Assembly (NCBI RefSeq): GCF_001402875.1
Contig: NZ_CP012946.1
Location: forward strand, 62,001-126,000
DNA length: 64,000 bases
From: Blastochloris viridis
GTDB taxonomy: Bacteria > Pseudomonadota > Alphaproteobacteria > Rhizobiales > Xanthobacteraceae
Reading direction: 5' to 3'
Numbering within the stretch: position 1 is the stretch's first letter; each line of letters starts with the position of its first letter. The notes beneath the pieces were generated by a model. It worked only from the letters and a program-made list of their open reading frames with translations. It was not told the origin of the DNA and did not search any database. Below are positions 1,852 to 3,771 of the stretch, piece after piece. Both the position numbers and the translations under genes were made by a program.

Positions 1852-1914
1852 TGTATTCAATTAATTCATTCATTGGCCCATGCAAACCAAAATTCCCATT
1901 GCTGCAAAGGTCGG

Positions 1915-3540
1915 TCAGCCAGTACCAGATACGATTAATTTTCCGAGCTGCGCAATCACAAGTTTTTCTGCCTCAAAATGCGGTGGAACGACGACGTCAA
2001 TGACCGGTTTTCGTGGATCGTTCTTCCACTTTAATGCCTCACCAAATGGATCTTTCCTTCGACCGCCCTCAAATAATTCGCGGTAACGTGAGGGTGAAAT
2101 CCCGATAAAAGGCTCGAAAGAAACTTTTTCGCTATCACTATGGTCTTCTACCTGAATTGAATCGCTGTGGAGCTTTTTGGCGTAACTTTTCGGGTACGGT
2201 TCTAAATAGACAATTCTACCAATTCCTGACGCCACAATGTGTTTAGCGCATAAATGACAAGGAAATGTTGTACAAAAAAGGGTCGCGCCAATTATTGCTC
2301 TTCCATTCCTAGCTGCGTCACAGATTGCAGACATTTCTGCATGGATGATACGGCCAAACTCAATTATATCCATAACACGCAAGTCTTTGTAGCGCTTGCC
2401 CTCATTTTTTGAAAGAAGTATTGTAACAATACTGGCCGCATCTTTGTTCAAAAGATCATTTGAAAGAAGTTTATCTTCTAAAAGTCGAGATATAATCTCT
2501 GCAAAAATCTCTACTTTATTAATTTCATTTGGATCATGCCCGAGTCTTATGTCGCGGCTGTCGGCGTTGTCTCCGGTCCAATAGGTCCCTCCGCCCGCTT
2601 TGGGTACTTCGTTTGACCCAAGGCTAATAATTTCGCCGGTTTTTGAAAAAATCGCGGCGCCAACTTGACGAGAGAGGTCACAGGATCGCAAGGATGCGGT
2701 CTTCGCCAAATACATTCCATATTCGTCTCTCGTTGGGGAGATTTCGTTGCTCCCAAAAAAAGCGTTCAAAAAGCGATCTATTGATACAATTGCAGACTCT
2801 TTGTTGTTAGAATCTACAAATATGTCACCGAGACAAAATGTTCCTGATAGGTTTTGACCGTACTCATTATCCTCTTTGCTGTCTCTTTCAATCAGTCTCT
2901 GGGCGCCTTCGCTAGAAGTATTGTTATCTATAGTCCCACGTGACTTGATCTTTATTTTTGAAATTAAAAAATCTTCACGCCGTTGCGGCGAGCTGTAAAT
3001 TGAAACCAACACAAATTGCTTTCCATAAACCGCTCGAAGAAGACGAACTTCTTCGGGAGTTTTGAGTTGGCGTACCACCCAAGCGAGCTTTCGTCGGGAT
3101 GGCTGAATATTTGATTTGTTTGTGGCCTCGTCCCGTTCTTTTATTTGCTCGCGTAGCTTGCTAATAGCGCTTATTGTAAGGGCAGCAAGTAAGTCCTTCG
3201 CTCTATAGGCCCTCCGAAGTTCATTTGCATACTCTATTTTTGATTGGTATTCTTTTAACATATCCGTGCAGTCGATAGTTTTGCTGCACTTTATGTCCTG
3301 CATAATTTCAGTAATTCGAATAAATTCTGTTGAGTAGTCAAAACTTTTGAGGCAATCGGATATCGATTGCTGGATATAGTCGATATCAACTCCAACTGGG
3401 CCGGCTAACGCAAAAACTAAATCTGGATAGTCGACGGGAGAGACAAATTTGATTGGGGAACCTCTTAAAGGTTCTCGATTAAGAAGGGCATCCTCGTTAA
3501 AGTCGCACGGCGCCTGAGGGGGCGATTCGGGATTTGTCAA
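1915..3540 (-). CDS. Anti-phage dCTP/dCMP deaminase, AvcD family
   Basis: Proteins of this family (AvcD/DcdV) deaminate deoxycytidine nucleotides during phage infection and starve phage DNA replication. From the TTG at 3540 the protein is 541 residues. The N-terminal P-loop-like domain begins with LVFALAGPVGVD (about 41-52). The C-terminal cytidine-deaminase domain has DLSRQVGAAI, NEVPKAGGGTYW, zinc ligands HAE (H400, E402) and PCHLC (C428, C431), then EPYPKS. Length and architecture match the family. The start is uncertain. TTG 3540 has GGAG six bases upstream and gives a sensible N-terminus; a GTG at 3609 would add 23 residues but has no ribosome site. Codon use is AT-rich, unlike its neighbours, indicating recent transfer. 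Known systems carry an RNA antitoxin upstream; none is proven here. Confidence 0.9.
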   Translation of the reverse strand: MTNPESPPQAPCDFNEDALLNREPLRGSPIKFVSPVDYPDLVFALAGPVGVDIDYIQQSISDCLKSFDYSTEFIRITEIMQDIKCSKTIDCTDMLKEYQSKIEYANELRRAYRAKDLLAALTISAISKLREQIKERDEATNKSNIQPSRRKLAWVVRQLKTPEEVRLLRAVYGKQFVLVSIYSSPQRREDFLISKIKIKSRGTIDNNTSSEGAQRLIERDSKEDNEYGQNLSGTFCLGDIFVDSNNKESAIVSIDRFLNAFFGSNEISPTRDEYGMYLAKTASLRSCDLSRQVGAAIFSKTGEIISLGSNEVPKAGGGTYWTGDNADSRDIRLGHDPNEINKVEIFAEIISRLLEDKLLSNDLLNKDAASIVTILLSKNEGKRYKDLRVMDIIEFGRIIHAEMSAICDAARNGRAIIGATLFCTTFPCHLCAKHIVASGIGRIVYLEPYPKSYAKKLHSDSIQVEDHSDSEKVSFEPFIGISPSRYRELFEGGRRKDPFGEALKWKNDPRKPVIDVVVPPHFEAEKLVIAQLGKLIVSGTG

Positions 3541-3551
3541 GGGAGACTCCA

Positions 3552-3758
3552 ATGAGCGATACAGCTGGCCTTTCTCCTGGGTGGCTGCGCGAGGAGATAG
3601 GATCCGCACTGCAGGAAGTTACAAAAAGGTCATATCTCTCGGAAGAGATGCGGCAGTCGTTTGAAGACACTGCTCTCGCCATTAAGACAACCAGCAATTT
3701 ACGCGGCCCTCTCCCGACCGCGGATTGTGTAAAATCCCCATGCGTGGAGCTTAAGTGA
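3552..3758 (+). CDS. Small hypothetical protein, divergent from the deaminase
   Basis: A 68-residue ORF starts at an ATG preceded by GGGAG with six-base spacing. Its first 45 residues are rich in charged residues and likely helical (GWLREEI, ALQEV, SYLSEEMRQSFE), with no signal peptide or membrane segment. I do not recognise the family. Its start lies only 11 bp from the chosen TTG start of the deaminase on the other strand, and the two ribosome sites share the ten bases at 3541-3550, which is suspicious. It may be a real partner, a truncated resident gene, or chance antisense to an unannotated RNA upstream of the deaminase. Confidence 0.4.
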   Translation: MSDTAGLSPGWLREEIGSALQEVTKRSYLSEEMRQSFEDTALAIKTTSNLRGPLPTADCVKSPCVELK

Positions 3759-3771
3759 TTTTACTTGGGAA

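Follow-up and report, generated by a model that had tools for sequence, protein, structure and literature searches.

A small divergent gene as candidate partner of the AvcD-type anti-phage deaminase inserted beside obgE in Blastochloris viridis

In the characterized systems, AvcD deaminates both dCTP and dCMP, and a labile RNA, AvcI, keeps it off until the shut-off of transcription by a phage depletes this RNA and thereby releases the enzyme, as described in excerpts of three reports (PMC10511110, PMC12409362, PMC9455884). Overproduction of AvcD harms its own cell, according to excerpts of two of them (PMC10511110, PMC9455884), and the enzyme has to be kept in check. Excerpts of the same literature place AvcI upstream of avcD (PMC9455884), state that it is slightly shorter than 300 nt and that about 171 nt are the minimum for function (PMC10511110), and describe RNA control of AvcD in systems from Vibrio and E. 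coli (PMC10511110, PMC12409362).

Here, we analyzed a stretch of 64,000 nt from Blastochloris viridis (contig NZ_CP012946.1, positions 62,001 to 126,000), hereafter called the window; the source genome is one contig of 3.72 Mb. The window encodes a deaminase with the same two-domain architecture as that of AvcID from Vibrio and E. coli (NF041025, PADLOC dCTPase), a P-loop-like N-terminus followed by a zinc deaminase C-terminus, and with the same active-site residues. The two differ in what lies upstream, which is an RNA antitoxin in the characterized systems and a divergent, putatively protein-coding gene in the window. We propose, at a probability of about 0.5, that the insert holding both genes is a two-gene anti-phage unit whose small protein regulates AvcD, most likely as a labile inhibitor. 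The features of the locus are as follows (window coordinates).

808..1851, minus strand: flanking obgE (NF008956, 455.6 bits)
1862..3803, no strand: probably acquired insert, without DNA homology to two congeners (blastn against L052, L053, L042 and L043; empty sites)
1915..3540, minus strand: AvcD/DcdV-type anti-phage dCTP deaminase, 541 codons with the TTG at 3540 taken as start
2248..2343, minus strand: zinc-deaminase active site, H400-A-E402 and C428-x-x-C431 (domain match, alignments)
3382..3405, minus strand: degenerate P-loop-like motif AGPVGVDI, residues 46-53 (alignments)
3542..3550, no strand: ggagactcc, with GGAG on both strands, ribosome-binding-like for each divergent frame (read from the sequence)
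3552..3758, plus strand: small divergent gene, 68 codons from an ATG (relatives in the corresponding position, protein databases)
3772..3802, no strand: inverted repeat directly after the GNAT gene, 14-nt arms, 93% complementary
3808..4434, minus strand: flanking GNAT acetyltransferase gene (PF13302, 110.6 bits)

The borders of the insert were read from its relatives. DNA homology to both congeners ends at about 3804-3807 and restarts at 1858-1861 (blastn), so the range 1852-3771 given in a preliminary description of this DNA is correct within tens of bases. In the two other genomes of the genus that were examined (G044 and G074), the GNAT gene and obgE are adjacent, with gaps of approximately 241 and 229 bp, and the deaminase has only weak matches (E about 6e-4), none over the NF041025 cut-off. 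The insertion between these two genes, claimed in the preliminary description, is therefore matched by an empty site with a short gap of 229-241 bp in 2/2 congeners, the comparison that it had suggested. The description had also called the gene AT-rich and unlike its neighbours, which agrees with a GC content of 43.1% and a GC3 of 39.5% for the deaminase gene against 64.8-71.0% and 80-94% in five neighbours (obgE, GNAT, rpmA, rplU, and an ABC gene). Measured in 1-kb steps, two steps within the insert are at 42% and 52% GC, and all others in the 64 kb are at 63.6% or above. In nearly all of the 56 loci measured, the flanks of the deaminase gene are less AT-rich than the gene itself. A low GC content is thus typical of the family and, taken alone, gives no date for the insertion; we have dropped AT-richness as proof of recent transfer.

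By our judgement, the only plausible genes in the insert are the deaminase gene and the small divergent ORF. No integrase or other third plausible gene was found in it and ARAGORN detected no tRNA gene in the 64-kb window, as the preliminary description had stated; neither flanking direct repeats nor long inverted repeats were seen in 1780-3880. That description was right about the location and the deaminase and incomplete in two respects, since the insert is a two-gene unit whose second ORF had been missed and the start of the deaminase is irregular. The second gene (3552-3758, plus strand) is thus the new part of the finding. The inverted repeat at 3772..3802 has a weak T tail and is possibly a terminator, and it is absent from the output of the terminator scan. 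In the GNAT-obgE gap of both congeners (L052 2130-2350, L053 2130-2365), a GC-rich stem is followed by a longer repeat-like stretch, of which a 41-base piece was not found in the window within 3 mismatches.

The deaminase itself is an ordinary member of the known AvcD/DcdV anti-phage family. Its frame (1915-3540, minus strand) is open over 541 codons. In hmmscan, the protein scored 458.3 bits against NF041025, the NCBIfam model for anti-phage dCTP deaminases (cut-off 400), and matched the PADLOC dCTPase profile at E 3e-160, whereas the ComEB family TIGR02571 reached 47.3 bits, below its threshold of 219.45. The proposed family assignment and the HMM search put forward as a check on it thus agree, with the protein over the anti-phage cut-off and under the ordinary one. 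Residues H400, E402, C428, and C431, which had been picked out as the deaminase site, are invariant in 50/50 aligned rows (window included; 31 in the clade described below and 19 outside it; six loci were omitted from this alignment). The claimed P-loop-like N-terminus is borne out by the alignments, in which the GPVGVD motif lies at the family's usual position (the commonest residues in the clade are VGPIGVDL), and by structure. The AlphaFold model of the deaminase has a mean pLDDT of 83, and its best Foldseek matches are dCMP deaminases; adenylate-kinase-related proteins are matched too, among them 3h0k_A (E 5e-5, TMt 0.73), which presumably aligns with the N-terminal part, the table of matches giving no range.

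An ordinary housekeeping dCMP deaminase, placed here by chance, would account for the matches of the C-terminal half to dCMP deaminases. ComEB and the dCMP deaminases of phages and hosts share the catalytic fold and the zinc site with the window protein; to our knowledge, they have no N-terminal domain, and the alignment and the model give the window protein a large one. The window protein also passes the NF041025 cut-off and falls far short of that of ComEB, and its carriage is patchy (14/198 family genomes), which together make this explanation highly improbable.

The beginning of the deaminase gene is unusual in this genome. In each of the 30 other clade loci, an ATG, GTG, or TTG occurs no more than 90 nt upstream of deaminase residue 39, and the window has none in that distance (region 3453-3540). 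Its nearest start is the TTG at 3540, which lies 114 nt before that residue and has GGAG six bases ahead of it. If this TTG were used, the two start codons of the insert would stand 11 bp apart with one ribosome-binding-like element common to both. Because no standard start lies in the usual place, the activity of the deaminase in the source genome is uncertain, and the gene may be weakly expressed or decaying there. We weighed the possibility that, with the usual start of the deaminase lost, the whole unit has become silent or is in decay in this genome. The first 30 residues have low confidence in the model and look unstructured, and the protein database holds the deaminase as a 462-aa prediction (P0002), which covers 85% and lacks the P-loop-like part; these points fit such a loss. 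Set against them are the 541 open codons with the active-site residues kept, an identity of 65-66% to the nearest relative, and the TTG with its GGAG, and we regard a decayed or silent unit as an unlikely explanation, though one to be taken seriously.

The small ORF points away from the deaminase gene and has AGGGAG six bases before its ATG. Its product matched nothing in NCBIfam, PADLOC, or PHROGs, and its Pfam match was at chance level. Relatives were found both in protein databases, where the closest apart from the protein itself is 81% identical, and at the corresponding place of other deaminase loci. A tblastn search over 25 loci detected a small ORF upstream of the Microvirga deaminase in the same divergent place (E 1.7e-8) and likewise in a Hyphomicrobiales MAG (E 6.5e-5), with weaker matches elsewhere. 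An iterated HMM search of 1393 ORFs (at least 30 codons, both strands, 50 loci), with divergent ORFs alone admitted, yielded three sets: g1 (the window and eight more, with a G-W core), g2 (ten members, R-G-P core), and g3 (two members plus look-alikes). The longest forms of these ORFs begin anywhere from 7 nt within the deaminase match to 150 nt upstream of it. The matches up to E 0.1 are divergent ORFs at that place, except for one far-off short g3 ORF (L110), which was disregarded; one match of the first round, at E 0.07, was a same-strand ORF of L009, which thereby outscored some of the members added later. Profile comparison did not join g1, g2, and g3, that is, it gave no link to one common ancestor. 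Residues G10-W11 of the small protein are invariant in a 17-row alignment.

In the sequence databases, 15 proteins match g1 at E 0.1, the window's own included, and 70 match g2 at E 0.01. These relatives are called hypothetical protein wherever a name is given, and no curated family covers them. The same annotation is carried by an ORF at this place in Pararhizobium gei (L147), 55 bp from the deaminase gene, for which there was no subfamily HMM match. The g1 model found the small gene in its own genome at E 9.4e-23. A structural model of the small protein shows two helices (11-24 and 31-46) and a low-confidence tail, with a mean pLDDT of 71, and matched only generic helical proteins in the structure search.

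The pattern of substitutions indicates that the small ORF is protein-coding in relatives. In pairs picked by us as the closest ones and aligned as DNA, differences concentrate at the third codon position: 4, 2, and 24 at positions 1, 2, and 3 for L003/L004 (P 2e-7), 12, 16, and 34 for L005/L007 (P 4e-4), and 21, 14, and 41 for L005/L108 (P 2e-4). The pair L006/L008 gave 22, 19, and 25 (P 0.25), with the frame kept in 99/177 bases. Across 13 small-gene pairs, aligned by codon on the basis of the proteins and uncorrected for saturation, pN/pS was 0.17-0.62, with 0.17 for L003/L004 and, for the window gene, 0.53 against L010 and 0.62 against L002. By extension from these relatives, the window copy is presumably translated as well.

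Linkage of the small gene to the deaminase was counted by a fixed rule that ignores homology: a divergent ORF with an ATG start and 50-85 codons, starting 60-170 nt upstream of deaminase residue 39. With the clade drawn where our own carrier label splits the deaminase tree, such an ORF was present in 28/31 clade loci against 4.6 expected by chance, and together with a ribosome-binding-like site (loose pattern) in 26 against 0.5 expected. Outside the clade, 3/25 loci had the ORF (3.6 expected) and 0 had it with the site (0.4 expected). The chance expectation came from 100 Markov resamplings per upstream region. Two of the clade loci missed by the rule (L009 and L019) have a homologous ORF with another start, and the third, from Zymomonas (L150), lies inside the clade without the small ORF. 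Eleven loci were skipped, where the match starts late or too little upstream DNA was at hand; L082, L083, L086, L095, L114, and L116 were omitted as second copies of loci already included, and L094 and L097 as partial genes.

On the deaminase tree (53 rows; L018, L113, and L118 were omitted from it and are counted as outside in the ORF census), the 30 carrier rows form one side of a 100/100 branch with L150 within, the carrier labels having been assigned after inspection of the ORFs. Among these, L016, L020, and L089 were assigned as carriers from place and size alone, and L085, L090-L093, and L147 were sorted by eye. On an earlier tree, the subfamily labels, some of them given by eye, required 5 changes against a shuffled mean of 25.9; g2 and the g3-like group each form one side of a branch, and g1 is not one clade (4 changes). 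Features that distinguish the carrier clade from the rest are a P-loop-like motif of the GPIGVDL type, some 11 additional residues at 201-211, and 12 diagnostic columns. Viral contigs contributed three new full-length loci (L155, L157, and L158), all of which fell in the clade and had the ORF with a ribosome-binding-like site; of the 12 viral-contig loci, seven short matches to other deaminases were unused and two (L154 and L156) repeat known loci. Over 397 genomes of the order, the g1 model gave 2 matches, both beside the deaminase gene; given the limited reach of this model, no orphan g1 gene was seen among them and rarity is not implied. As judged from conserved position and the trees, the small gene is a fixed, co-inherited companion of one, mainly alphaproteobacterial, deaminase clade.

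Carriage of the deaminase is patchy. Matches over the NF041025 cut-off occur in 14/198 family genomes, and matches at E 1e-60 or better in 19/397 genomes drawn from the order and 9/385 drawn from the class, the source genome being counted each time. The nearest relative in the genome collection is that of Microvirga massiliensis (L010, approximately 65-66% identity), followed by that of the Hyphomicrobiales MAG (L002, 60%), whose locus also occurs in G481, a genome of another family code (f20). In the tree, the window deaminase groups with L010 and L002 at 100/99, away from other carriers of its family. Vertical descent with the gene in all relatives, named in the preliminary description as the outcome that would speak against insertion, is contradicted by the patchy carriage and the cross-family tree neighbours. 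Because carriage is this patchy, the insert was probably acquired horizontally.

The preliminary description had also raised the question of whether this site is a recurrent defense hotspot. A first survey covered 30 family loci out of 187 genomes with the GNAT gene and found obgE within 1.5 kb of it in 6/30, the misses including the window's own locus and two short loci. In 20 stretches of about 10 kb, obgE lay within about 9.5 kb of the GNAT gene in 9/20, with gaps of 58 to 6263 bp and 58-72% GC. AvcD was present in none of these 14 distinct other loci with obgE near the GNAT gene (6 and 9, one counted twice). In the GNAT-obgE intervals of 6 loci, 10/18 ORFs were scanned and no clear defense gene was found; the ten proteins belong to the EamA, GNAT, phosphoesterase, TetR, TonB receptor, FMN-binding, and rhodanese families or have no match, and the lone PADLOC match was weak (17.6 bits, on a phosphoesterase). 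No recurrent hotspot was thus seen in this partial family sample, in which obgE is often distant from the GNAT gene.

Several further occurrences were recorded. Partial or interrupted deaminase matches are present in other family and order genomes (G081:C207, G081:C149, and G526:C19). Among plasmids, 24/47 records with an AvcD-family match are from Klebsiella, where the gene sits on small plasmids of about 4.6 kb in most of those listed. Four clade deaminase loci (L154, L155, L157, and L158) are on IMG/VR contigs of 40-64 kb; proviruses may therefore be a further vehicle for the unit.

Under the preferred reading, the insert would be an anti-phage unit of two genes that arrived by horizontal transfer, with the small protein as its clade's AvcD regulator, most likely a labile inhibitor in the role of AvcI RNA. 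A phage that shuts off host expression would cause loss of the small protein, the deaminase would then act, and the released enzyme would, like characterized members of the family, convert dCTP and dCMP to dUTP and dUMP, starving phage DNA replication. Inhibition, lability, and the infection trigger are properties that we infer for the small protein. The wider claim that the whole AvcD clade is controlled by a divergent small protein antitoxin instead of AvcI RNA is tentative and falls somewhat short of an even chance.

The small protein could also be a true companion of another kind, either one that regulates transcription from the divergent promoter region or a sensor or activator that the deaminase needs in infection. 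The divergent layout suits such a role, with gaps between the start codons of 55 bp in Pararhizobium gei, about 80 in L002, and about 90 in L010, and the intergenic blocks are largely conserved among six g2 loci. But no DNA-binding fold or family was recognized in the small protein, and two helices with a loose tail offer little for a repressor; we think a regulator or sensor of this kind rather improbable. The gap between the divergent starts of L003, L004, L005, L007, L108, and L155 contains largely conserved blocks, including GTTCC, GATAATC, and CGACTC, which are possibly back-to-back promoters or an operator.

A further alternative keeps the control at the RNA level, with an RNA antitoxin as in AvcID on the divergent transcript or the deaminase leader and the small ORF secondary to it. 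It draws on the upstream position of AvcI and on its size (slightly under 300 nt, minimum about 171) in the excerpts cited above (PMC9455884, PMC10511110), and the divergent strand of the g2 loci is weakly structured, 3/26 predicted pairs having two-sided change. Yet the deaminase strand of the six g2 loci gave 0 consensus pairs, folding of the DNA upstream in the window was unexceptional (z 0.98, -0.81, 0.02, and -1.79), and no Rfam match was found up to E 1, in a collection that may lack the AvcI family. The third-position-biased change in relatives is moreover a mark of coding constraint, and an RNA antitoxin here appears decidedly improbable.

Outside the clade, the copy on the plasmid of ETEC H10407, presumably the ETEC AvcD locus studied in print, offers a comparison: its deaminase falls outside the carrier clade on the tree, and no divergent ORF is present by the fixed rule. 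On ETEC plasmid p58, a 61-codon hypothetical gene (L146 937-1122, plus strand) precedes avcD by 12 bp in the same orientation and occupies the region where AvcI might be expected.

Regulation of AvcD by the small protein would resemble type II toxin-antitoxin pairs, in which a small, fast-evolving protein is encoded beside an enzyme that is harmful when overproduced. Their linkage of a protein gene to the toxin gene was found here in the 28/31 clade loci identified by the rule. The loci of the window type are, in those read, divergent rather than operonic, and neutralization is hypothetical here; no antitoxin-family match was obtained among the small proteins scanned with Pfam, PADLOC, and PHROGs, and for the window copy also with NCBIfam. 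If the preferred reading is true, a single deaminase family would have come under control by two unrelated means, and, judging from our searches, the small protein would be the first known case of a protein that inhibits a nucleotide-depleting deaminase triggered by phage; titles and abstracts of the literature searched contained, among the matches listed, no protein partner of AvcD. A protein partner that is conserved and co-inherited within an alphaproteobacterial clade makes a second mode of AvcD control simply testable. The small gene is tiny, fast-evolving, and on the opposite strand, and is easily overlooked; should it be the partner, a search for the deaminase gene alone would miss a component. 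Elsewhere in the window, the alphaproteobacterial sRNA BjrC1505 (Rfam RF02356) was detected at 8664-8802 on the minus strand with 95 bits.
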